A DNA stretch of 64,000 nt from Tetragenococcus koreensis (lineage in GTDB: Bacteria; Bacillota; Bacilli; Lactobacillales; Enterococcaceae): NCBI RefSeq assembly GCF_003795145.1, contig NZ_CP027786.1, positions 2,356,001 to 2,420,000 of the forward strand, in the 5' to 3' direction. Of this stretch, positions 3,161 to 35,499 are shown in pieces. The translations under genes and the position numbers were made by a program. The notes under the pieces were generated by a model that was not told where the DNA came from, searched no databases, and saw only the letters and a program-made list of their open reading frames with translations. Each line of letters begins with the position of its first letter. Positions within the stretch are counted from its first letter, which is position 1.

Positions 3161-4021
3161 ATGGAGAAGCCATTTTTAAAACATGCCAGTGTGCTGATAG
3201 CAGCGGTTCTTGCACTGGGGATTTGTGTAGGTGGTTACTATGTATCAAACCAAAAGCAATATCAACAACGAGTAGCTTATGCGAATGCAGCACAATCAAA
3301 TGAAAAAGCAGTACTAAATGACTTAGAAAAACAAGTCAATGAGCTTTATACAGATGATGAAAAAGAGCTTCTCAAAGCAGAAACAACGTCAGCTGAAGTA
3401 GACAAATTAAGAACAGATCTTGATCGGGTGAAAGTGACAGCAGAAGATTTTCAAATTAAAGAAGAATCCTTGCCTGCGGATATGCAAGACTTAGCAAAAG
3501 AAAAGGAAGTTGTTGCTGATAGTTTGGCAGATGTCACAGATAAGCTTCAGGTACAAAATGAAGTTGATTCACTTTTTACCGAAGAAGTTCCGAGTTGGCA
3601 AAAGTTTGAAGATTCTGCGGTGGTAAAAGATGATCTTAAAAATGAAGAGGTCAGTGATATTACCGAAGAGCTTGGCTTTTTTGCGGAAGACCAATGGATG
3701 GATATCGTCCAATCCTACTTATCAAGTGCATCAGATCAAGTACAAGCAATAAATGAAATCCAAGAAAAGCTGGCAACCTATAAAGAAGAAGAGTTCAGCT
3801 ATGATCAGTATGCAACATTATCTGAACAAATCGAGCAAGTCCGCAACCAAAAGCAACATGATAAATTTGAAGAAGCAGCGGATGAACTAGGCGAACGATT
3901 CGGTGTTTCGACTGAAGGCGCTGCGGCCGAAAGCGCAGAGGCAAACGTAAATGTTGAAGATGAAACGATTTATGTTGAACAAGGTGTACCAACAGAACCA
4001 GAAGATACTGAAGCGTATTAA
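3161..4021 (+). CDS. Exported or anchored coiled-coil protein of unknown function, first gene of the capsule locus
   Basis: 286 residues. A basic N-terminus and one hydrophobic segment (about residues 9-27, ASVLIAAVLALGICVGGYYV) form an uncleaved signal anchor or signal peptide. The rest is highly charged, Glu/Lys/Gln-rich and predicted helical with heptad-like spacing, ending in an acidic tail (TEPEDTEAY). No LPXTG or enzymatic motif is seen. The stop is 33 bases before the LCP start, so the two are probably cotranscribed. A surface protein that organises or tethers the polysaccharide machinery is a guess; I do not recognise the family. Confidence 0.65.
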   Translation: MEKPFLKHASVLIAAVLALGICVGGYYVSNQKQYQQRVAYANAAQSNEKAVLNDLEKQVNELYTDDEKELLKAETTSAEVDKLRTDLDRVKVTAEDFQIKEESLPADMQDLAKEKEVVADSLADVTDKLQVQNEVDSLFTEEVPSWQKFEDSAVVKDDLKNEEVSDITEELGFFAEDQWMDIVQSYLSSASDQVQAINEIQEKLATYKEEEFSYDQYATLSEQIEQVRNQKQHDKFEEAADELGERFGVSTEGAAAESAEANVNVEDETIYVEQGVPTEPEDTEAY

Positions 4022-4053
4022 TTCATTGCTTCACTTAAATGGAGGAAAATGAT

Positions 4054-4983
4054 ATGGCAAGAAGAAGCCACAAGAAAACAAGTCGTGGAAAAAAAGTTTT
4101 CCGCGCGTTATTAATCGTTGTACTTATTTTAGTCTTAGCAATTGTTGGAGTAGCTGTCAAAGTATATTTAGATGTGTCTGGTTCTGTGGGCAATACTTAT
4201 GAAAATGTTGATCGTGATAATTCGCGTAATATCGATTTTAGTGATGAAGATCCCTTTAGTATCTTGTTACTAGGAATTGATAGTGGTGATTTAGGACGAG
4301 AGGAACAAGGCCGTTCGGATACTTTAATGGTCGCAACAGTGAATCCGCAAGAAAATAAATCCACTTTAGTGAGTATTCCGCGGGATACTTATGTAGATAT
4401 TGTGGGCGAAGATAAGCAAGATAAAATCAACCATGCTTATGCTTTTGGTGGAACTTCCATGGCAATGGATACGGCCAGTGAGTTCTTGGATATTCCAATT
4501 GACCACTATGTTTCGATTAACATGAAAGGTATTAAAGAATTAGTTGACGCTGTGGGTGGCGTGGATGTAAATAATGATTTGGAATTTACCTTTGATGACT
4601 ATAATTATGAATTCGGTAAAATTCATTTAAATGGCGATCAAGCCTTGGGCTATTTACGGATGCGTCACGATGATCCAGAAGGAGATTATGGTCGTCAAGG
4701 ACGGCAACGGGCTGTGGTGGAAGCCGTGGTAGATAAAGCTTTGTCCCTTTCAGGAGCAACTCAATATCGCAGTATTTTGGATGCTTTAGAGGGCAACATG
4801 AAAACTGATTTAAGCTTTTCAAATATGCGTACGATTGCTCTTGATTATCGCAATGCCTTTTCAAATATAGACCAATTGCAACTACAAGGAGAAGGCTTCA
4901 TGCAAGATGGCGTTTCTTACCAACGGGTAGATGAAAACGAATTGCAAGAGGTTCAAGAGGCTTTACAAGACCAATTACAGTAA
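4054..4983 (+). CDS. LytR-CpsA-Psr (LCP) family phosphotransferase
   Basis: LCP enzymes move undecaprenyl-linked polymers onto peptidoglycan outside the membrane. The basic N-terminus and one transmembrane segment (about residues 17-42) are followed by the LCP core: ILLLGIDSG, GRSDTLMVATV, the SIPRDTYVDI Arg/Asp cluster, KINHAYAFGG, VDAVGGVDV and LRMRHDDPEGDYGRQGRQR. The ATG at 4054 is chosen because GGAGG at 4041 sits 8 bases before it; the ATG at 4039 overlaps that site. The place ahead of cpsC/D/B suggests it attaches this capsule to the wall. Confidence 0.9.
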   Translation: MARRSHKKTSRGKKVFRALLIVVLILVLAIVGVAVKVYLDVSGSVGNTYENVDRDNSRNIDFSDEDPFSILLLGIDSGDLGREEQGRSDTLMVATVNPQENKSTLVSIPRDTYVDIVGEDKQDKINHAYAFGGTSMAMDTASEFLDIPIDHYVSINMKGIKELVDAVGGVDVNNDLEFTFDDYNYEFGKIHLNGDQALGYLRMRHDDPEGDYGRQGRQRAVVEAVVDKALSLSGATQYRSILDALEGNMKTDLSFSNMRTIALDYRNAFSNIDQLQLQGEGFMQDGVSYQRVDENELQEVQEALQDQLQ

Positions 4984-5007
4984 TACCAAATAGAAAGTGG
5001 AGAAAAA

Positions 5008-5799
5008 ATGGAAGAGACGATTAGTTTAAGAGAAATATTTGATATATTAAAACAACGCTACGCAATGATTTTAACCAGCATGTTTGCTGGACTTGCTTTA
5101 GCTGCGATCGTAACTTTTTTCATTATGACACCGCAGTACAGCTCCCGGGCGCAGATGATTGTGGCACTACCACAGGATGAGGGCACGGATGAAAACCTAA
5201 ATACCGTGAATTACAATTTACAGATGCTAAACACTTATAAGGATATTATTGAAGAAGGCGATGCATTGGCAAGCACTGTTCAAGACCGCCTTGCTTCTGA
5301 GTATGATTTAGAGATGACCATCCGCGAAATTAAAGACAGCATGGAAGTCGAACAATCCGAAGAATCGCAAATGTTCTCGATTGTGGCAACTGGAGAAACG
5401 GCAGCAGACGCCGAACATATCGCAAATACAGCAGCGGAAGTTTTTCAAGACACCGTTCAAGACGTGTTAACCAACGTTGATAAAATTACGATCGTCTCTC
5501 GGGCAACAGCAAGTAATCGTCCAGTGTCGCCGAATAATACTTTGAACCTAGCTATTGGGCTTATTTTAGGACTTTTGGTGGGGATTGCCCTAGCTTTCTT
5601 AAGAGAAGTTTTAGACCGAACGGTGAAAGACAGCCGTTATGTTACCGATACTTTGGGTCTAACTGTTTTAGGGAATGTACCGAAAATGAGCCAAAAAGAA
5701 ATCGAAGCGACAACACAAAAACTACGCGACACGCAGCGGTCAGATGATCAGGATAATAACACAAGTAGCGGCGGACGTCGTAGTCGCACTCGCGTATAG
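5008..5799 (+). CDS. cpsC: Wzz/CpsC-type chain-length regulator and kinase modulator
   Basis: A membrane protein of 263 residues with two transmembrane segments (about 18-38 and 175-195) flanking an extracytoplasmic helical domain. The second is followed by the FLREVLDRTVKDSRYV stretch typical of Wzz proteins. In Firmicutes this subunit activates the separate cytoplasmic tyrosine kinase CpsD, encoded next. The C-terminal tail is Arg/Ser-rich. It sets polymer length and links synthesis to kinase state. The ribosome site is GTGGAG. Confidence 0.9.
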   Translation: MEETISLREIFDILKQRYAMILTSMFAGLALAAIVTFFIMTPQYSSRAQMIVALPQDEGTDENLNTVNYNLQMLNTYKDIIEEGDALASTVQDRLASEYDLEMTIREIKDSMEVEQSEESQMFSIVATGETAADAEHIANTAAEVFQDTVQDVLTNVDKITIVSRATASNRPVSPNNTLNLAIGLILGLLVGIALAFLREVLDRTVKDSRYVTDTLGLTVLGNVPKMSQKEIEATTQKLRDTQRSDDQDNNTSSGGRRSRTRV

Positions 5800-23502: not shown

Positions 23503-23649
23503 CCTTTTATGGATAAGTTAATGCCTCCTGATTATAGCTAATTTGTTAATTTACCAACATTTATTCGATCTATTTGTTAAAATAGATGCAAGGCTTTTTA
23601 CAGTAAGGCCATTATAATCGTGCACTCGTTGTTGCATAGGAGGATTCTC

Positions 23650-24590
23650 ATGTACAAATCACAACCTTACATCCAAATTTCTTTTGAAGATTTCAACCAG
23701 CCCTTAGGCCTTCATATGAATCCAGAAAACCGTTGGGTAAAAAAAGCGGAACGAATTCCTTGGAGCGCATTGGAAAAAGACTATGCCAAAAACTTTCCTA
23801 ATCCCAAAGGGAATGTGGCCCAGTCGATACGTATGGCGTTAGGAGCGCTTTTAATCCAAAAGGAATATCACTACAGTGATGAAGAAACCGTGGCTCAAAT
23901 TCAAGAAAATCCTTATTTGCAATTTTTCGTGGGGCTCCCTGGCTATCAGGAAGAAGCGCCTTTTGAAGCGTCCTCCATGGTCCATTTTCGTGAGCGCTTG
24001 GATGAAGTCACGCTGATCGAAATCAATGAAAAAATCTTGGCCTACAATCAAAAAGATGACGATGATACAACACCGCCCACAGACAGTTCCAATAGAGCCG
24101 CCCGTCTAGAATATTGCAGTTTCAATGCTTATAACGAGTCAGACATTTTAATTTCTACGATTCGTCGTTACCATGAACGGCATGGCTACTACCCTGAACG
24201 CGTCTTAGCAGACAAGATTTATCGGAATCGAAAAAATCTTAACTATTGTAAACAGCGAGGCATCCGGCTATCGGGACCTGCGCTGGGACGAACGAAAAAG
24301 AACGAAGTTCGTGATAAAACAACCGAAGATCAAGACAATGCGGATCGTGTCGCTGTCGAACGTGGCTTTAGCCAACTAAAGAGTTGCTTTGGCGCCGATT
24401 TGATTGGATAACAACCAAACGAAAAGATACCACGCTTTCAAGTATTGCTTTAAGAGTTTTGGCACTCAATCTGTCTCAATTGACGGCAAATTTTTTACGC
24501 CAAATTTTGTCTAGCCTCTGCAAAAGGAGGCAAATAAAAAATCAGACAGTTTATTTTAGCTTTTTTACAAAGTTCACAATTATTCAGTAG
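23650..24590 (+). pseudogene. IS1182-type transposase remnant: internal deletion plus frameshift
   Basis: Starts normally at ATG 23650 (AGGAGG upstream) with the family N-terminus (YIQISFEDFNQPLGLHMNPE). After the DDDDTTPP linker it jumps to ARLEYCSFNAYNESDI, the region after the second catalytic Asp, so about 150 residues including the first Asp motif are missing, in frame. The part with VLADKIYRNRKNLNYCKQRGIRLSGPALGR is retained. Near 24400 the frame shifts, and the C-terminus (ITTKRKDTTLSSIALRVLALNLS) continues in the frame running to 24590. Dead element. Confidence 0.85.
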
Positions 24591-25068: not shown

Positions 25069-27090
25069 ATGAAAATTCATAAAGTAAGAATAGAAAATTT
25101 TAGATTGCTTAAAGATTTTGAACTGGATTTTAGAGAGGAAATATCACTTATAGTAGGTAAGAATAATTGTGGAAAGACATCAGTTTTGACAATTATGGAT
25201 AAATTCCTAAGTTCAGGAGACATAAGCTTTAGTTGGAATGACTTTAACTTGGATTTTCAGAAAGAATTTTACGAAAAGCTTTTTGAAAGAGAAGTATCTG
25301 AAGTTGAGTATAATTTTATAAACAATGGCATTAGGATGCAGTTATTTATCGATTATAATGAGTCAGATAACTATATCAATATTCAAAGCCTTATGATGGA
25401 TCTAAACCCAAGAAATAATATCATAGTGTTAGAATTTATTTACACTTGTAAAGAAGATATGTTGAAACAATTAAGAAATGACTTAAACCAACTCAAAATA
25501 AATACATTTGAAGAATTTTCTAACTTTATGAATAAAAATTCCTCAAGATACTTTGAGCTTCAAAGGTATTCAAGAAGATTTGATTTTGATAAGAAAGAAG
25601 TAACCGAACAGACCTCCGGAAAGTTTACTTTTTCCGAGATTAAAAAACTAATTAATTTTAGGAGTATTAAAGCTAATCGAGAAGCGTCAAATAAAGCAAA
25701 TGATCATTCTTTGTCATCGCTTTCTCAGAAGTACCATAATATTAATTCTTTAGATGAAGATATGGTCATAACTGAATTACAAAAAACCATCCAAGTTGCT
25801 GATCAAAACTTAAATGAAACATATAATGGAACAGAAGAACATCCAGGAATATTTAATGAAGTTTTTGAAAGTGTAAGAAAATTTGGTTCTGATGCTGATA
25901 TTTCAATTCAGTCAACTATTTCAGAAATGGATTTGCTTAAAAACAATACTACTTTATACTACAAAAATGATAATTTAAAGCTACCTGAAAGTTACAACGG
26001 CTTGGGCTATTTAAATTTAATAGGTATGATTTTTGAAATTGAAACGATTATTTCAGAGTTTCATAGAAAACTAAATGAAAAACCTGCAGATATAAATCTT
26101 TTATTTATTGAGGAACCTGAAGCACATACTCATCCACAGTTACAGTATGTATTTATTAAAAATATTAAGGACTTAATTAAAGAACGAGTAGTGAAAAATG
26201 ATTCTAGCATTAACATACAAACACTTATTACAACACACTCCTCTCATGTTGTTTCTGAGTGTGATTTTAGTGACGTTCGATATTTGGTAAGGAAGAATAA
26301 TAAAGTAATATCTAAAAACTTTCAGGAGCTCCAAGAAAAGTATGAAACAGATAAACTTGCATTTAAATTTGTTAAGCAGTATTTAAATCAAAATCGTTCA
26401 GAATTATTTTTTACAGATAAAGTTATTTTTATAGAGGGAGATACTGAAAGAATTTTATTACCAGCTATGATGCAAAAGATCGATAAAATACACGAAGAGG
26501 ATAAGAGGTACTTACCACTTTTATCACAAAATATCTCAATTATAGAAGTTGGCGCTTATGCTTACAAATTTAAGTCATTAATTGATTTTTTAGATATTGA
26601 AGCTTTAATCATTACTGATGTTGATGGAGTAGAGAAAAATGGTGGAAGTAGTTGTGCTTCTAAGCATGCTAAATTTACTTCGAATTTTTCGTTGAGAGAT
26701 TTTTTTAATCTACCTAATGATGATAGACAATTTAGTAAATTAACAAGAAAGTCATTTAATGAGAAAGCATTGGGTAATACTCGTATTGCATACCAAACGG
26801 AGATACCTTTTGCAATAGAGAAATACCAGCCTAGAAGTTTTGAAGATGCTTTTATATGTCAAAATTTTATTTATACAAAGAAAAATAAAAATAATTTTGA
26901 ACAAGGGTTAAAAAAGAGAAACTTATTTGAAAGATCGGCTCTTGATTTTTATGAAATTTCTCAAGAATGTGTAGCTAAGAAATCAGCATTTGCGTCCGAA
27001 ATTTTATATTACGATGGCTTCACTGAAGGAGAAACATGGGTAGTTCCTGATTACATCAAGGAGGGGTTAGAGTGGCTGCAAAAGAAATAG
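25069..27090 (+). CDS. gajA: GajA-like OLD-family ATPase/TOPRIM nuclease
   Basis: 673 residues. The N-terminal ABC-type ATPase has Walker A GKNNCGKTS (residues 30-38) and Walker B LLFIEEPEAHTHPQ (near 346), followed by TTHSSHVVSE. The C-terminal TOPRIM domain shows the Glu of VIFIEGDTERILLP (near 453) and the Asp pair of ALIITDVDGVEK (near 518). In Gabija this protein is the nucleotide-sensing nuclease that pairs with a UvrD-like helicase, exactly the next gene here. It is about 95 residues longer than the Bacillus cereus GajA. The frame overlaps gajB by 19 bases. It is intact, but alone it may not protect, because its partner is interrupted. Confidence 0.85.
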   Translation: MKIHKVRIENFRLLKDFELDFREEISLIVGKNNCGKTSVLTIMDKFLSSGDISFSWNDFNLDFQKEFYEKLFEREVSEVEYNFINNGIRMQLFIDYNESDNYINIQSLMMDLNPRNNIIVLEFIYTCKEDMLKQLRNDLNQLKINTFEEFSNFMNKNSSRYFELQRYSRRFDFDKKEVTEQTSGKFTFSEIKKLINFRSIKANREASNKANDHSLSSLSQKYHNINSLDEDMVITELQKTIQVADQNLNETYNGTEEHPGIFNEVFESVRKFGSDADISIQSTISEMDLLKNNTTLYYKNDNLKLPESYNGLGYLNLIGMIFEIETIISEFHRKLNEKPADINLLFIEEPEAHTHPQLQYVFIKNIKDLIKERVVKNDSSINIQTLITTHSSHVVSECDFSDVRYLVRKNNKVISKNFQELQEKYETDKLAFKFVKQYLNQNRSELFFTDKVIFIEGDTERILLPAMMQKIDKIHEEDKRYLPLLSQNISIIEVGAYAYKFKSLIDFLDIEALIITDVDGVEKNGGSSCASKHAKFTSNFSLRDFFNLPNDDRQFSKLTRKSFNEKALGNTRIAYQTEIPFAIEKYQPRSFEDAFICQNFIYTKKNKNNFEQGLKKRNLFERSALDFYEISQECVAKKSAFASEILYYDGFTEGETWVVPDYIKEGLEWLQKK

Positions 27091-28472
27091 AACTGGAAGT
27101 TGAACGAGCTCTCGAATGTATCGAATGCGAGAAAAATTTTATTTTGACCGGAGGAGCAGGTAGTGGAAAAACTTATTCACTGATTTCTCTTATAGAAGAA
27201 ATTGGAAATAAATATCCGCTAAGTTCAATTGTTTGTATTACTTATACAAATAATGCTGTAGCAGAAATTAGAGATCGTATCACAAACAGTAATTTACGAG
27301 TCTCCACAATACATGAGTTCGTTTGGTCAATAATTTCTGAATTTCAACGAGAAATAAAAGAAACTCTGATAGAATTGGTTAATGAAGAAGAAAAGGGAAA
27401 ATTTAAACAACCTAAAGAACTTGATGATGGACAAAAGATAGGTGTAGATTATTTTAATGATAGTAACATCGTATACGGCGGTTATTACGATTTAAAAAAA
27501 CATGAAGTAAGTAGTATTAATCATGATCAAGTTTTAATACTTGCAGAAAAAATGTTCGAAAAATACTCGAAGCTTTGCGATATTTTGAAAGATATAGCAA
27601 AATTCATCTTCGTTGATGAATATCAAGATACGAGCCCACTAATAAAAGAAATTTTGCTTAAACACTTGAAACAAAGTTCCAAAAAGAACACTGTAGGTTT
27701 TTTTGGTGATTCAATGCAAGCAATTTATGACGGTAGCGTGGGAGCAATTACTGATGGTAGTCTTGTACGTATAGATAAGAAGCAGAATAGAAGGAATCCA
27801 CAAACTGTTATTGATTTAGCAAATCTGTTAAGAGAAGATGAGATTGAACAGGTACCTTCAGACGATTTAAATGCTCCTAATATGGACAACGGTATAATTT
27901 TACAAGGAAGCATTAAATTTGTATATGCAGATAGTATTGATGGAGTTAACTCTTTGCGTAATTTACCCTATTTTAAAGATTGGAATTTTTACGATAGTAA
28001 ACAGACTAAAGAATTATGGTTAGTTCAAAAAGCAAATGCAAAAAGAGCAGGCTTTCCAAAGTTATTTGAATTATATAATTCTGATAAGATTATTGAACTG
28101 ATAGATAGAACACAGAAAAAAGTAATACATAAAGGTATTGAAACAAGTAATAGAACTTTTGAATCTGTGACAGAGGAGGCGGATGTTTGGGTTAAAAAAA
28201 GAGGAAACTTATTAGAAAATATAAGAGCAGACTCAACTTATAGTTCAGTTTTTGAGCGGATAAAGGCTAATGATTGGGACAAAGTGAGTAACTATAGAGT
28301 GAATAAAGAATCTTTGTTGTCTTATAAATTTAATGGTTTAATGGGGAAATATGAATCTAGGCCTCAACGAGATAAAATATTGTGTCATTTGGATTCTATT
28401 TATGAGCTTATGGAACTTTATGAAAATGGGGTTTATAATGATTTTTTAAGAAAAACGGAAAAAAATATAATA

Positions 28473-29996
28473 ACTCAAGTTTCGCACACCAAATCTGGGA
28501 GATAAGCCTTGATATAACGGGGCAGAGTATCCACCCAGTGTTGGAGTTGACTTGTAATAAAATCTTGTAATTGGCTTCCTGATTCTTCACTTACCGCTTG
28601 AATAATATGTACTAATTCGATAAGAGCAGCGGACCAATCGAGTTCTTTTATTTGATCGCCCAGTTCATAAAATAAGCCACCTAAGGTCCGCTCATCATTG
28701 GCACAGCGCTGCTGCCAGCTTAATAAAATATACCGTGTGAACACAATGGTGGTGTGACAAATTAAGGCTTGATAATGTCGCGTTTGTGTTTCTTTAGTCA
28801 GATGAAGCAATGATTTCGATGCCTTAAAAAATGTCTCGATGTCCCATCTCGCCGAGTATGTTTTGACCATTTCTTGGGAAGATAAATCCAGATCATCGGT
28901 CATAATCGCCAACCAAGCACTTTTCTTATTGTGATTTTTGACAAAAACGATTTTCACGGGATTTTTGCCGGAGCTTGGTTTCACCACAATCGAGGAAATA
29001 ATCGCTTCTTGTGTATATTCTTTCGTAGATTTGGCATAAAGTTCTTCCAGCTTGTATAAACGTTGATGAAAAAGGTATTTGGTTTTTCCATTTTTCACCA
29101 TCCCAATGGTGTGAATCCCCATATCGTGTAATTGGTCTATCATTTTAGGGGAAGTAAACCATTTATCCATCAACACATGGGTGGCGTAAATCCCTTGGTT
29201 CAAGGCGCGTTGAACCATCTCAAGTGCCACTTCGGGCATTTTACGACTTGATTCGTTGAATCGTTTGGCTCCTACGGTTCGTTGATCTTTTTCTGCTATT
29301 GTTTGGTTCACTTTTTTCTTACCGGATAGTAACCCGAAATCAATCGGAATGAAAGAATAGCCATCGGAGAACCCTAAAGTAAGCATACGATACCCTTTGT
29401 ATCCTTGTTTGAGCGCATGATCCCAAAGACGAGCTAAGCCTGGTACCTCTTGGCTTCGATTACGATAAAACGTCGAATCATCCAAGATCAACGTCCGAAT
29501 ATGGGTTTTCGTATCCGTTAAAGAATGGAGCTTTTCGATGACAGACGCACTAAACCGAAGTAAAAACAGACGCCAGTTGTTATGGGGATTGTTCATCCAT
29601 CGATACACGGTATCTTTTTTCATGTATTGGTCGCTTTCCCGCCCACTGAGAACTTGGTTTAAGGATTTTCCTTTAAAGACGAGGCTAAAGAGAAAAGTGA
29701 ATAGAATAGCCACCGAATACCCTTTTTGCTTTTCCATATGGGCTTGTTTTAAAAATTGCGTGACTTTTAATTCAGAAAAAAGGGCTTTTATTTCATTCGG
29801 TAATTGATTTTTAATAGCTTTTAAGTGTACCATAAAGGCAAGAACTCCTTTGTTTTTGGTTTGTGGTTAAATCAATTATAAAACAAAAGGAGTTCTTTTT
29901 GTATAAAAAGGTAGGCAGTCAATATCAGGACTTTTTTCGACCTAAGAGTTGATAAGACCGTTGTTTAATATCATTTTACATGTGCGAAACTTGAGT
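28473..29996 (-). mobile_element. IS4-family insertion sequence in the helicase gene
   Basis: Perfect 16-bp inverted repeats: ACTCAAGTTTCGCACA at 28473-28488 and its complement at 29981-29996. AATA at 28469-28472 and 29997-30000 is the likely 4-bp target repeat. Length 1524 bp. The transposase stop codon lies inside the left repeat. Confidence 0.92.
28475..29833 (-). CDS. IS4-family transposase
   Basis: 452 residues. DDE residues visible as LILDDSTFYRNRS, HVLMDKWFTSPKMI and YSARWDIETFFKASKSLL, the last being the Y-R-E signature of the IS4 group. Start ATG with AGGAG upstream on the minus strand. Full length. Confidence 0.9.
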   Translation of the reverse strand: MVHLKAIKNQLPNEIKALFSELKVTQFLKQAHMEKQKGYSVAILFTFLFSLVFKGKSLNQVLSGRESDQYMKKDTVYRWMNNPHNNWRLFLLRFSASVIEKLHSLTDTKTHIRTLILDDSTFYRNRSQEVPGLARLWDHALKQGYKGYRMLTLGFSDGYSFIPIDFGLLSGKKKVNQTIAEKDQRTVGAKRFNESSRKMPEVALEMVQRALNQGIYATHVLMDKWFTSPKMIDQLHDMGIHTIGMVKNGKTKYLFHQRLYKLEELYAKSTKEYTQEAIISSIVVKPSSGKNPVKIVFVKNHNKKSAWLAIMTDDLDLSSQEMVKTYSARWDIETFFKASKSLLHLTKETQTRHYQALICHTTIVFTRYILLSWQQRCANDERTLGGLFYELGDQIKELDWSAALIELVHIIQAVSEESGSQLQDFITSQLQHWVDTLPRYIKAYLPDLVCET

Positions 29997-30507
29997 AATA
30001 ACTTTAAAAGACAAAGTAAATTTAAAAGAGGGGATGGATCAACTAGCTAATAGGGACCTTACGATCGGTCAATGTATAGATAGAGCAGAAATAATTTTAA
30101 ATATCCAAAACGATCCGTTTGAAACTTTTATAAAAGACCGAGGAGTATATTTATGGCAACGAATTAAAGAACTTCCATTTAGTGAATATGTACGCTCTAT
30201 TGAGTATCAAAAAGAATACTTGCCTTTTGCTACTCAGCATAGTATTAAAGGTAGTGAGTTTGATAATGTATTAGTTGTTTTAGATAATGGTAATTGGCAT
30301 AATTATAACTTTGAAACTCTATTTAAAGAAGTAGAAGTTAAAGATACTGTTATTACACGAACGAAAAAATTATTTTACGTATGTTGTACTCGAGCAAAAA
30401 AGAATTTATGTGTGTTTATGCCAACTTCAGATACTACTGTAATAGAAAATGCTAAAGAACTATTTGGGGAAGATAATGTATTTCACTGTGGTTAAACTAA
30501 TAGATAT

Positions 30508-30603
30508 ATACATAGTGGAGCAATGATTGAAGATAGGTTTAGATAGCTATGTATTAATTTAATTGATGTTTGGTTCTTAACTTTTATTATCGAACTGAAC
30601 ATC
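30508..30603 (+). ncRNA. Two-hairpin RNA candidate upstream of the reverse transcriptase
   Basis: Hairpin 1: ATACATAG (30508-30515) with CTATGTAT (30547-30554). Hairpin 2: GATGTTTGGTTC (30565-30576) with GAACTGAACATC (30592-30603), twelve pairs of which two are G-U. No T run follows, so it is not a normal terminator. Defence reverse transcriptases (retrons, DRT2, DRT9) often carry a structured RNA here. The wobble pairs suggest an RNA-level structure rather than a protein operator. Confidence 0.4.
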
Positions 30604-30607
30604 TATT

Positions 30608-32269
30608 TTGACTAATCATGTTAAAAAGAAGAATATATTGTTTTATATAGAAAAGAGTGAAAAAGTGGCTGAACGACGTAGAAGCGTTTTGGAAATGAAT
30701 AATACCGAAGCAAAAGTTTTTTTTATGAAATCCGAAAGCTATTTTAATGCAAAATTGCCGGATTATATAAAATTTGACGCAGCTTTAAAGTCTGCTGAAA
30801 AAATTTTAAAAAATAAAAAGGGTCAACCAAAAGATATAGAATCAGTAGCTGAACATAAGACATATAAAGAACGTGATGATTTAAATTATACAATTATCAT
30901 GAATAAAAATGGTCATTATTCTTGGCGCCCACTAGTTCTTATTCATCCAATATTGTATGTGGACCTAGTTAATTATATCACTAACAAAGATAACTGGAAT
31001 GAATTGTTAAAAAGATTTGAAGAGTTTCAAAATGAGAGCAATATAAAATGTTACTCAATCCCTTTAGAAGCAACTAACCAATCCAAAAAAACAGATACTA
31101 GCGAAACGATTCTAAACTGGTGGGAACATTTTGAACAAGAAAGTATAGTGAAAAGTATTGATTATCAGTATGCTATGTTTACTGACATTACAGATTGTTA
31201 CCCATCAATCTATACGCATTCTATAACTTGGTCATTATATGGTAAAGAGTATGTGAAGAAAGATAAAAATAAATGTAAAGGTTCATTTGGGGATAAAATC
31301 GATAAAAAAATTTCTGGATTACAATATAATCAGACAAATGGAATTCCACAAGGATCTGTACTAATGGACTTTATCGCTGAATTAGTTTTAGGTTATGCAG
31401 ATCTAGAGCTATCTACAAGTTTGAAACAAGAAGGCTTGGTAGAAGATTACGAAATAATTAGGTACAGAGATGATTATAGAATTTTTTCAAATAGTAGAGA
31501 ACAGTTAGAACACATTACTAAATCTTTATCTGAAATATTAAATGAATTAAACTTTAAATTGAATTCGAAAAAGACCTTTATAACAGAAAATATAGTTACT
31601 GACTCTGTTAAACCTGAAAAGTTGTATTGGGAACAAATTATTAGTAGTTTTCGGAACGTTTCTGTGCTCGACAACAAGAAGGGAACAGTCACTTATAGTA
31701 TTTCTTTACAGAAACATTTATGGGAGATCAAAAAATTAAGTAATAAATTTCCAAACTGTGGGATCTTAAAAAAAGCTTTAACCAATTTTTATAAAGAAAG
31801 AGTAACTAGGATAGGTGCTACAACCAAGACCTCAGATATGCTTCCCTTAATAAGCATACTTATAGATATTATGACTAATAATCCTAACTGTTTGTCACAA
31901 TCTATTTTAACTATTGGAACATTATTAGACCATATAGAAGATGATGGTAGAGCACTTCAGATTATTGAGGCTATTCTAAATAAATATAAAAAGAAGTCTA
32001 ACACTGAGTTTTTAATTGTGTGGCTTCAGCGATTAGCATTACTATTTCCTGGTTATCCGTTAAAGACACTGTATATACAAGATCGTCCACTTACTTATAA
32101 AGTAGAGCATCAAGATGGGACGAAATTGTTTACAGACGATTGGTTGAACAAGTCTGAACAAGGGAAGTTTGTTGAAGATAATTTAATAGATGATGAACAA
32201 ATTAAGAAGATGAGAAGAGGAATTAAACTTTCAGAGATTAACATTTTTGATGATTATTCCGTAGGTTAA
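30608..32269 (+). CDS. Defence-type reverse transcriptase (Abi/UG-like, YRDD active site)
   Basis: Up to 553 residues. RT fingers and palm: TDITDCYPSIYTHS (motif A, near 192), NGIPQGSVLMDFIAELVLGYAD (motif B), IIRYRDDYRIFSNS (motif C, near 285) and LNFKLNSKKTF (motif D). Motif C is YRDD where retroviral and retron enzymes have YxDD with A or V. The C-terminal 200 residues look like helical repeats (SILIDIMTNNPNCLSQSILTIG), as in AbiK/AbiA-type enzymes that make untemplated or RNA-primed DNA. Start is uncertain: TTG at 30608 gives the longest product, while ATG at 30695 gives MNNTEAKVFFMKSESYFN, closer to the usual start of this group. It follows the helicase with about 110-200 bases between. 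Confidence 0.85.
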   Translation: MTNHVKKKNILFYIEKSEKVAERRRSVLEMNNTEAKVFFMKSESYFNAKLPDYIKFDAALKSAEKILKNKKGQPKDIESVAEHKTYKERDDLNYTIIMNKNGHYSWRPLVLIHPILYVDLVNYITNKDNWNELLKRFEEFQNESNIKCYSIPLEATNQSKKTDTSETILNWWEHFEQESIVKSIDYQYAMFTDITDCYPSIYTHSITWSLYGKEYVKKDKNKCKGSFGDKIDKKISGLQYNQTNGIPQGSVLMDFIAELVLGYADLELSTSLKQEGLVEDYEIIRYRDDYRIFSNSREQLEHITKSLSEILNELNFKLNSKKTFITENIVTDSVKPEKLYWEQIISSFRNVSVLDNKKGTVTYSISLQKHLWEIKKLSNKFPNCGILKKALTNFYKERVTRIGATTKTSDMLPLISILIDIMTNNPNCLSQSILTIGTLLDHIEDDGRALQIIEAILNKYKKKSNTEFLIVWLQRLALLFPGYPLKTLYIQDRPLTYKVEHQDGTKLFTDDWLNKSEQGKFVEDNLIDDEQIKKMRRGIKLSEINIFDDYSVG

Positions 32270-32660
32270 TTATTAACCTACATAAAAAACTGATGTTTTA
32301 ATATTTAATCAACCAATAAACTTGCTAACAGAATTACATGAATGTCGGATTGATGAAAAATATCAAATTAAAAATTTAAGAGATCGTGAAAAAGAGGTGA
32401 AGTTTATATAATTATATAAAAGTATAAAGTATTAAAAATCATTGATCTTAGTTTGAAGTACTAAAGGCTTACTCAAATAAGGATTAATAATAATAATTTG
32501 CGTACATTCTACATTTGAAAACGAAGAAATTATTTGAAAAATAGCGTGATGATACCTATTAAAATCTTATGAGTAGGTTTTCTCTGAAGTTATCAGATTA
32601 TAAAGAACCTTGTGTTAATTAATGATAAGCATTAACTGGAACTCAAGTATATTTTAAATC
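32270..32660. other. AT-rich non-coding stretch after the reverse transcriptase
   Basis: No complete gene. An open stretch ending at 32410 encodes LTELHECRIDEKYQIKNL and a short tail, possibly the end of a deleted gene, but I do not recognise it. The remainder shows no structure that I can support. Confidence 0.4.
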
Positions 32661-33118: not shown

Positions 33119-33194
33119 GCTTCCTTGGGCAAACTCCGGTATAAATAAAGTGTGCAAGGGATACTTTGTACAAAATTAATTGGAGGTGGCAATA

Positions 33195-34748
33195 ATGCCC
33201 AACTATTTAGAGATTCTCAGGCTTCACGAATTGTCGGTGAGCATGCGTCAAATTAACCAATCGGTCGGTTCTGGACGCAATACGGTCAGTAAGGTTCTAC
33301 GAATGGCACGAGAAAAGCAATTAACCTATCACGAATTGTCGCAATGGGAGGAACAACGCGTGGAGGAATTCTTTCGTTCTAAAGCCACGAAATCTAGCCA
33401 GAGACAGTCGCATTTTGTCCTGCCGGACTATGAACAGTTAGCCAAAGAACTCGCCAAACCAGGCGTCACCATGCAGCTTTTATGGGAAGAATATGTGGAC
33501 CAATGCCGACAGTCGAATCTTGTTTATTATCAGCTAACCCAGTTTAAAAAGTATTTTCATGAGTATTTAGCCAAGCAGCCTTTTGCCCACGTCATTCATC
33601 ACAAAGCAGGAGAAAAAGTCCAAGTAGATTGGGCAGGAACGAAAGCTCATTGGATCGATCCGGACACGGGCGAACAAATCAAGGGCGATCTTTTTGTCGC
33701 TGTTTTGCCCTTCAGTGGGTATTCCTTTGCTTTAGTTTGTCCCAATATGAAGCAGGCAAGCTGGATTCATGCGCATATTCAATGTTTTGCCTTTTTTGGA
33801 GGGGTCCCTACGTTAATTATTCCGGATAACCTAAAAGTGGGAGTAACCAAACACACGCGCTCAGAAGTGATTCTTAATCAAAGCTATGAAGAATTTGCGA
33901 ACGCTTGTCATACGGTCATTATCCCTGCACGTGTACGCAGACCACGTGATAAAGGGGCCGTTGAAAATACGGTCAAGCAATTGACGACGCATTTAATCGC
34001 TCGTATACGTAACTATCAATTCTTTAGTATGGAGGAATATAATGAACCGTTAGCGATTGAGTTACGAAAATTTAATCAGAAACCCTTTCAAAAGAAAACG
34101 GGTTCTCGCCAATTCATTTTTGAAACCATAGAACAAGCCGCTTTACAGCCATTACCCATCTATCCTTATGAGTATGGTAAATATAAAACCGCAAAGGTTT
34201 ACGCCAACAGCCATATTAGTTATCAAAAACACTACTATTCTGTTCCTCATGCTTACATTGGAAAATCAGTCACTTTAAAGATCTACACGAAGGTTTTAAA
34301 AGTTTTTGACGGGTCTACGCTTTTATGCCAGCACACCACACAATACAAACATCCTGGACAATATACAACAGAGGCGGAACATTTACCGGAAAATAGTGCG
34401 CATTACGGTGACTGGAATAGTTCTCGTTACCAAAAATGGGCACGACGTATAGGCCCTAACGTGGCGATTGTGGTGGAAAGAATGTTTTTGGAAGCCAAAA
34501 TTGAACAACACTATTATCAACGTGTTCATGCATTATTAAAATTGGCAGACCCCTATTCCGACCAAAGATTAGATCAAGTCTGCCAACAAGCTTTAGAAAA
34601 GAATAGCACTCCTAGCTACTCCCTTCTCAAATCACTACTTGAAAAGCAAGCTAAGAACGCTTCTTTTTTCCAGAATAGCACGTCATCCACCCAGGAACAA
34701 GCTTATTTGAGAGGAGCCGATTATTATGACAACAACTTCTCCAAATAA
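33195..34748 (+). CDS. istA: IS21 IstA transposase
   Basis: 517 residues from the ATG at 33195 (GGAGGTGG site). N-terminal helix-turn-helix (MRQINQSVGSGRNTVSKVLR), then the rve integrase core with Asp in EKVQVDWAGTKAHW, Asp in TLIIPDNLKVGV and Glu in DKGAVENTVKQL, and a C-terminal beta domain. The last 23 bases overlap istB. Confidence 0.95.
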   Translation: MPNYLEILRLHELSVSMRQINQSVGSGRNTVSKVLRMAREKQLTYHELSQWEEQRVEEFFRSKATKSSQRQSHFVLPDYEQLAKELAKPGVTMQLLWEEYVDQCRQSNLVYYQLTQFKKYFHEYLAKQPFAHVIHHKAGEKVQVDWAGTKAHWIDPDTGEQIKGDLFVAVLPFSGYSFALVCPNMKQASWIHAHIQCFAFFGGVPTLIIPDNLKVGVTKHTRSEVILNQSYEEFANACHTVIIPARVRRPRDKGAVENTVKQLTTHLIARIRNYQFFSMEEYNEPLAIELRKFNQKPFQKKTGSRQFIFETIEQAALQPLPIYPYEYGKYKTAKVYANSHISYQKHYYSVPHAYIGKSVTLKIYTKVLKVFDGSTLLCQHTTQYKHPGQYTTEAEHLPENSAHYGDWNSSRYQKWARRIGPNVAIVVERMFLEAKIEQHYYQRVHALLKLADPYSDQRLDQVCQQALEKNSTPSYSLLKSLLEKQAKNASFFQNSTSSTQEQAYLRGADYYDNNFSK

Positions 34749-35499
34749 AAAGATCGAAGAGCTAACACAAAAATTAAGGCAGATGCGTTTGCCTATCATG
34801 GCCGCTCAATTACGCGCGATTTATACAGAAGAATTGGTCGATTCCATGACGCCCCTGGATCTATTGGAACAACTCGTTACCGAAGAATTTTATACTCGTA
34901 AACAAAATGCGATCGATAGGAATCGTAAAAAAGCGAAACTATCAAACACTACAGCTCATTTAGGAGACATCCATCACTCTCCCGAACGAAAAATCAATGC
35001 GCAAGTACTAGAGCAATTAGCCACCAATCAATACATTTATTCCCAACGGAATGTGATCATCCAAGGAGCTACCGGCACAGGAAAAAGTTATATGGCTAAC
35101 GCGCTTGCCAACCATGCTCTTGAAGCCAGCTATACTGTAAGATATTTTCGTATGACAGAACTCCTCAACGAGTTACACTTAGCTGAACTGGAACATGAAA
35201 TGGTCAAACGGCTGAAACAATTAACCAAAGTGGATATTCTTGTCATTGATGATTTTCTCCTCACTCCTACAAGTGAACTCGAACAAAAATATTTAATGGA
35301 AGTTTTTGAACTGCGCAATCGCTCCAAACCGCTTATTTTATGTTCCCAAATGAGTACCGCCGAATGGCACAAAAAATTAGGCGGTGGCGCCATAGCCGAT
35401 GCCATATTAGATCGGGCGATCTCTAATGCTTATCAACTAATCATTGAGGGCAGTTCTCAACGAAGAGCTCCTTCGACTGGTTCCAAAAACAACGATTAA
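34726..35499 (+). CDS. istB: IS21 IstB helper ATPase
   Basis: 257 residues, AAA+ protein: Walker A GATGTGKSYMANALA, Walker B VDILVIDDFLL, sensor region LILCSQMSTAEWH. It works with IstA to choose targets. The GAGGAG ribosome site lies within istA, indicating coupled translation. Confidence 0.95.
   Translation: MTTTSPNKKIEELTQKLRQMRLPIMAAQLRAIYTEELVDSMTPLDLLEQLVTEEFYTRKQNAIDRNRKKAKLSNTTAHLGDIHHSPERKINAQVLEQLATNQYIYSQRNVIIQGATGTGKSYMANALANHALEASYTVRYFRMTELLNELHLAELEHEMVKRLKQLTKVDILVIDDFLLTPTSELEQKYLMEVFELRNRSKPLILCSQMSTAEWHKKLGGGAIADAILDRAISNAYQLIIEGSSQRRAPSTGSKNND

Follow-up and report, generated by a model that had tools for sequence, protein, structure and literature searches.

Very probably, judging from its sequence and by analogy with Abi-P2 of Escherichia coli, the reverse transcriptase (RT) encoded in the 64,000-nucleotide stretch of Tetragenococcus koreensis DNA analysed here (the window) is an abortive-infection polymerase of the AbiP2 type, the leader before its gene probably being an ordinary spacer and the neighbouring Gabija locus a separate system. 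The evidence comprises profile and structure matches over nearly the full length of the protein, residues conserved across its relatives, a comparison of leaders within the family and a survey of gene neighbourhoods.

Assignment of the reverse transcriptase

A preliminary description of this DNA had recognised an RT with motifs A to D and a YRDD catalytic centre, and this was borne out: the frame was uninterrupted to its stop at 32269, with TDITDCYPSIYTH as motif A, QTNGIPQGS as motif B, YRDD as motif C and motif D also present. The features of the gene are as follows.

30665..32269, plus strand: AbiP2-family RT gene, 534 aa from the likely GTG (PADLOC, PDB, family N-terminus, tree)
30764..30766, plus strand: codon of Tyr34 (numbered from GTG 30665), aligned with Tyr61 of 7r08, the priming residue of Abi-P2
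31463..31474, plus strand: YRDD catalytic motif, read from the sequence and also found in 7r08

The first TTG of the open frame, at 30608, is probably too early as the start of the RT, and GTG 30665, about 20 codons later, is the likely start; a purine stretch precedes this GTG and the N-terminal stretch common to relatives (..S[VI]L-x-M/L...EA..FFLK.ESY) fits it. At the other end of the gene, the stop codon lies partly within a perfect palindrome (32261-32281, seen by eye) made of two ten-base arms separated by a single T.

PADLOC matched the protein best with AbiP2 (PDLC03744; E 4e-174, 578 bits), residues 23-550 (numbered from the TTG frame) aligning with positions 3-486 of the 489 in the profile, against 193 bits for the runner-up class RT_UG14, 164 for Drt6 and 140 for Drt4. 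The match to this profile ran on through almost the whole of the part behind the RT core, previously described as a helical C-terminal extension. Pfam gave the general RT domain only, and no NCBIfam model exceeded its cut-off for this protein. The best solved match in the PDB was Abi-P2 (7r08; E 6.7e-72, next chain E 7.4e-19), in which the RYRDDYRIFSNS stretch of the RT was matched; because 7r08 carries YRDD too, the motif is not unusual. Retrons typically carry YADD, and the earlier view that the enzyme is not a retron held, with no Rfam match anywhere in the window at gathering thresholds and with the retron St85 RT model scoring 30.9 bits where its cut-off is 235. With the AbiP2 profile best over its full length, YRDD, the motif A aspartate and an equivalent of the priming tyrosine, the RT is classed from its sequence as a full-length, intact AbiP2, a known phage-defence family, and by that family is assigned to the anti-phage RTs and not to the retrons. 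The search against RT-class profiles proposed as a check on the preliminary description thus returned a known class without an associated RNA, and the suspicion of a poorly described system had to be dropped, since AbiP2 has a solved structure and biochemistry. AbiP2 is PADLOC's DRT class I, so named in the available text of PMC11811056, which includes it in a catalogue of systems and also mentions Gabija; classification is treated in the parts available of that paper and of PMC8934634.

Plasmid searches with the RT returned 209 records, the top one from Enterococcus faecium (57% identical residues, 87% of the query covered), and viral contigs searched with the window RT protein alone returned no relative. 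A profile scan of genomes, using the patterns RYRDDY[RS]I and NWW, gave 331 relatives, the best 80 of which were kept and came from Bacillota, Bacteroidota, Cyanobacteriota, Chloroflexota, Pseudomonadota, an archaeal bin and others; a scan of viral contigs, with no YRDD in its pattern, found 27. Among 395 genomes of the order (its own included), five matched the RT at E 1e-40, the leaders of the other four being left out of the leader counts given below. From 121 tblastn subjects we obtained 118 translated, 113 full-length and 109 distinct proteins, a second copy of the window protein and three duplicate rows having been dropped and the window kept within the 109; these were drawn from the genome scan (best 80 of 331), viral contigs, and phage and plasmid loci. 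The motif A aspartate was present in 109/109 aligned full-length proteins, as was YRDD, which in the genome-scan loci was partly selected because the search pattern contained it. All 109 likewise had P-x-Y at the site equivalent to Tyr61 of 7r08, a site absent from all search patterns; at the place of Tyr46 of 7r08 the window RT has Phe.

In a tree built by a quick method, where E. faecium is represented by a frame of partial length and L011 sits on a long branch, the window RT was sister to the E. faecium plasmid RT (support 99) and then joined L015 and L016 (99), within a group of 14 rows whose named rows were all Bacillota (support 88, below the mark of 95). The Abi-P2 proteins of P2 phages shared a set of 98 rows with it (support 92). 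Four of five more distant RTs used as outgroup fell well outside this set, and the fifth paired with a Listeria-phage row (L013) just outside it, a row that is counted among the 109 though it lies outside the main AbiP2 set. The characterised Abi-P2 type is carried by P2-like phages, and the protein from E. coli P2-like prophages has the same near full-length homology, YRDD, P-x-Y priming tyrosine and C-terminal profile as the window RT. In contrast, the window RT is 33% identical to the P2-phage proteins, is extended by a longer segment after the RT core, falls in the Bacillota part of the tree and is encoded on a large contig next to Gabija genes rather than within a P2 prophage. The nearest relative found, the RNA-directed DNA polymerase of the E. 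faecium vanA plasmid, differs in that its gene is broken by an IS30 element (L007:5787-8437) and its leader is unlike that of the window; the larger downstream part of the interrupted gene, annotated as RT, is without the priming tyrosine region.

The spacer before the gene

Two stems, of 8 and 12 bp, had been described as filling the gap before the RT with no T run behind them, and the leader had been proposed to encode an RNA. The region contains:

30496..30664, plus strand: spacer from gajB to the RT gene (24% G+C), for which searches returned no homologue
30508..30554, plus strand: stem 1 (30508-30516 with 30546-30554), 9 pairs, 29-nt loop
30565..30603, plus strand: stem 2 (30565-30576 with 30592-30603), 12 pairs including two G-U, 15-nt loop

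Both stems exist, the second as described and the first with nine pairs rather than eight. With a start at GTG 30665 the spacer is about 169 nt long, so the stems do not fill it. A short U-rich TATTTT (30604-30609) directly follows stem 2 where no T run had been noted, although a scan for terminators was negative. Among 2000 dinucleotide shuffles of the spacer, 329 had a stem of at least 12 pairs, counting G-U and allowing loops of at most 60, and 238 had such a stem plus a separate one of at least eight pairs. The whole spacer folded at z -1.2, a value matched by 28 of 200 shuffles, and in a second calculation at z -1.0, and the 150-nt version of the leader at -2.05; smaller segments, picked post hoc as holding stems, gave -2.3 (30496-30607), -1.0 (stem 1 alone) and about -5 (stem 2 alone, likewise after the fact). 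Stem 1 is within chance, whereas stem 2 taken by itself is notable, exceeding its shuffles in stability; the two-hairpin leader is probably AT-rich spacer of an ordinary kind.

Behind gajB, stem 2 may act as a weak terminator. Its local stability, its U-rich tail and its position, together with stem and T-run sequences seen by eye behind gajB in two Gabija relatives (L150, L153), make it possible, if tentatively so, that stem 2 and TATTTT form a weak intrinsic terminator, placed between the Gabija operon and an RT gene with transcription of its own. Against this, the scan found no terminator site, and the sole plus-strand promoter-like site (30563-30590) overlaps stem 2, an overlap of little weight with three promoter-like sites found in all and 2.0 expected.

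Similarity searches tied the spacer to no other sequence. It has no second copy in its own genome, and a 2.1-kb query containing it matched eight other genomes of the genus in a sole stretch of 50 bases, which lies inside the RT gene. Searches by nhmmer and blastn against the upstream stretches of relatives gave weak short matches (best E 0.005 over 33 bases), and the window leader was in none of the 118 plus-strand pairs from an all-against-all leader comparison (E 1e-3). When the window was compared with the E. faecium locus (L007), the first 130 coding bases aligned at z 12.7 and the preceding 170 bases at z -1.8; the leaders of L015 and L016 showed no similarity to that of the window over shuffles (z -2.1 and -0.6). 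None of these three leaders, which belong to the nearest relatives, held a stem of more than 10 pairs, and their own folds had z-scores of +2.2 (L007), +0.8 (L015) and -2.8 (L016), the last leader being mostly the coding end of the preceding gene, which stops 7 nt before the RT. The window leader aligned with none of five Gabija relatives either, and DNA similarity to these stopped before or near the gajB stop. With no leader match to the RT relatives and the Gabija likeness ending before or near the end of gajB, the spacer is assignable by homology to neither module.

We also compared leaders across the family. An upstream gene was called in 101 loci (window included) and lay on the same strand in 84, with a spacer, approximate because starts were picked by a script rule, below 60 nt in 33/84 and below 100 nt in 39/84. 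Among leaders with a spacer of at least 100 nt, 12/62 had z <= -2, compared with 33/150 control leaders taken from other genes in the same loci; this is a comparison of counts only, made on 150-nt leaders that with a gap of 100 nt or more can include coding sequence of the preceding gene, and one of the 150 controls had no z-score. The leader of retron Ec48 in L012, a positive control, gave z -4.8 by the same method. On the counts of 12/62 against 33/150, the AbiP2 family is without a general structured leader by this test. Single leaders, those of L050, L070, L029, L011 and L040, folded at z -4 to -5.7 (150 nt), much lower than the bulk of the family. A conserved stretch of about 50 nt before the RT in several Bacteroidota loci was considered as a candidate RNA and set aside because the proteins in most pairs were 83-97% identical and because the similarity begins and stops at integron-cassette-like marks.

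In DRT2, DRT9 and retrons, too, the gene of an anti-phage RT is preceded by a spacer, and these systems use an encoded RNA (DRT2 and DRT9, available text of PMC12596737 and PMC12483538; retrons, that of PMC12405507), whereas no such RNA is supported for the window RT. A structured RNA, encoded by the leader and bound and copied by the RT as in those systems, would place the two stems where they are expected and would fit the z-scores of stem 2, of 30496-30607 and of the 150-nt leader; we nonetheless regard it as very unlikely, given the missing Rfam match, leaders of the three nearest relatives that could not be aligned, the many loci with no room for an RNA, the lack of excess structure over controls by a method that detected the Ec48 leader, and the purification of Abi-P2 free of nucleic acid reported in the available part of PMC9508834. 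The earlier proposal of an RNA-encoding leader found no support in the comparison with relatives, in which the leader was unalignable, structure was not in excess and room was often wanting. The preferred reading is an ordinary spacer.

The Gabija neighbour and other settings of AbiP2 genes

The features upstream of the spacer are:

25069..27090, plus strand: gajA, the OLD-like nuclease of Gabija, frame intact (PADLOC GajA, E 5.1e-233)
27072..28505, plus strand: 5' part of gajB, its frame entering an insertion element (PADLOC GajB, positions 1-439 of 603)
28473..29996, minus strand: IS4-type element in gajB (transposase NF049925, E 1.7e-158), with terminal inverted repeats and AATA on both sides, the ends and AATA read by eye
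30034..30495, plus strand: 3' part of gajB (PADLOC GajB, positions 451-601 of 603)

The Gabija-like pair described before the RT was thus confirmed by PADLOC as GajA and GajB, with the difference that gajB is interrupted. Gabija requires gajA and gajB both intact, and here gajB is in two parts; because it is split by the IS4-type element, the neighbouring Gabija, a same-strand neighbour of the RT yet a separate system, is probably inactive. The genome contains 25 matches to this element, a total that includes the copy in the window as well as incomplete or diverged ones. What we take to be transposase-like frames flank the Gabija-RT stretch at 23620-24411 and 33180-35499 (IS21-like pair). The broken gajB and the 25 element matches could suggest that the RT too survives there only as a silent relic, this part of the genome being rich in insertions, a reading that is unlikely for a gene whose frame, catalytic residues and priming residue are all intact.

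The RT gene lies 169 nt behind gajB on the same strand, an arrangement that could be expected if the RT were a third Gabija component supplying or sensing DNA for GajA and GajB. Searching 115 loci (L007-L121, their genome part being the best 80 of 331) found no relatives of GajA or GajB by tblastn (E 1e-6) and no GajA by phmmer (E 1e-5), with the window's own proteins as queries, so that a distant GajA may be missed, and with short contigs limiting the search (at least 4 kb upstream in 82 and at least 4 kb downstream in 78 of 114 loci measured). Five of the six Gabija relatives were read further, and none of the five had a Y-x-DD frame of at least 150 codons on the gajB strand in the 3.5 kb that follow the gene. 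Since the pairing was repeated neither in the 115 loci nor in the five Gabija relatives, we rejected a partnership of Gabija and RT; with gajB split by an insertion element and the DNA similarity to Gabija relatives ending before or near its stop, a Gabija component is highly improbable, and the joint action with the OLD nuclease and helicase suggested in the preliminary description is likewise unsupported.

Other AbiP2 genes occur in settings of their own. Family scans covered 73/100 upstream and 67/96 downstream neighbours, with the 25 commonest families listed; type I restriction specificity (HsdS) was a recurrent setting (9 of the 73 upstream neighbours scanned), and the upstream neighbours in L047, L063 and L083 looked by eye like the ends of HsdS genes. 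In Escherichia phage pro147 (L012:2257-3447 and 3998-5542) a retron Ec48 region adjoins the Abi-P2 gene; an AbiP2 RT beside an Ec48 retron is mentioned in the available text of PMC8934634. Eleven loci, mostly of Bacteroidota AbiP2 (L023, L024, L025, L033, L038, L042, L044, L045, L048, L056 and L061), resembled integron cassettes: a mark of the GTTA or GTTT type, some 50 nt upstream of the gene, is where similarity between loci begins, and in seven of the eight loci with downstream DNA read (L056 being the exception) a TAAC mark, often the complement of the first, lies at most about 20 nt downstream. The gene preceding that of L038 was closest to an integron integrase (TIGR02249; 221.7 bits, cut-off 265). 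When the 260 nt following the AbiP2 gene were scanned by script, 0/12 loci showed a complete attC-like pair, an integron integrase exceeded the cut-off in 0/10 host genomes, weak matches occurring in 14/14 control genomes as well, and our literature search found no paper mentioning integrons together with AbiP2.

Proposed activity and place in the family

Family membership, an intact frame and conserved catalytic and priming residues are established for the window RT, and its oligomeric state, priming and template independence would follow from the literature on Abi-P2. In the available text of PMC9508834, Abi-P2 forms trimers, was purified with no nucleic acid attached and synthesises DNA untemplated, and a change of Tyr61 abolished DNA synthesis, whereas a change of Tyr46 did not. 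Untemplated synthesis is described for AbiA, AbiK and Abi-P2 in the parts available of PMC9508834, PMC11077055 and PMC12483538, and for 'class 1' UG/Abi RTs in that of PMC13275509, where AbiP2 adducts were measured; protection of E. coli from T5 by Abi-P2 is given in the available text of PMC11077055. By analogy with the E. coli protein, the window RT would trimerise via its C-terminal helical domain, attach the first nucleotide to its own Tyr34 and extend from it DNA of unspecified sequence with no template. In an infected cell, such synthesis would halt the production of phage and cost the cell its life or growth.

Recombinant Abi-P2 free of nucleic acid may still be compatible with an RNA in the native cell. 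It is most improbable that, in this lineage alone, the 169-nt spacer is an RNA, with stem 2 as its core, that binds AbiP2 and templates or restrains its untemplated synthesis; if it were, the window RT would be an AbiP2 that works with an RNA. Without homologues, a pair of stems upstream of an RT is not evidence for such a partner, and we retain the ordinary spacer as the probable reading. The window RT, whose host is, judging by its relatives, apparently Gram-positive, adds a diverged AbiP2 to a family known structurally and biochemically, in the parts of the sources available, from E. coli Abi-P2, and the priming tyrosine is kept in 109/109 proteins from many phyla, including those of the best 80 of 331 genome relatives.
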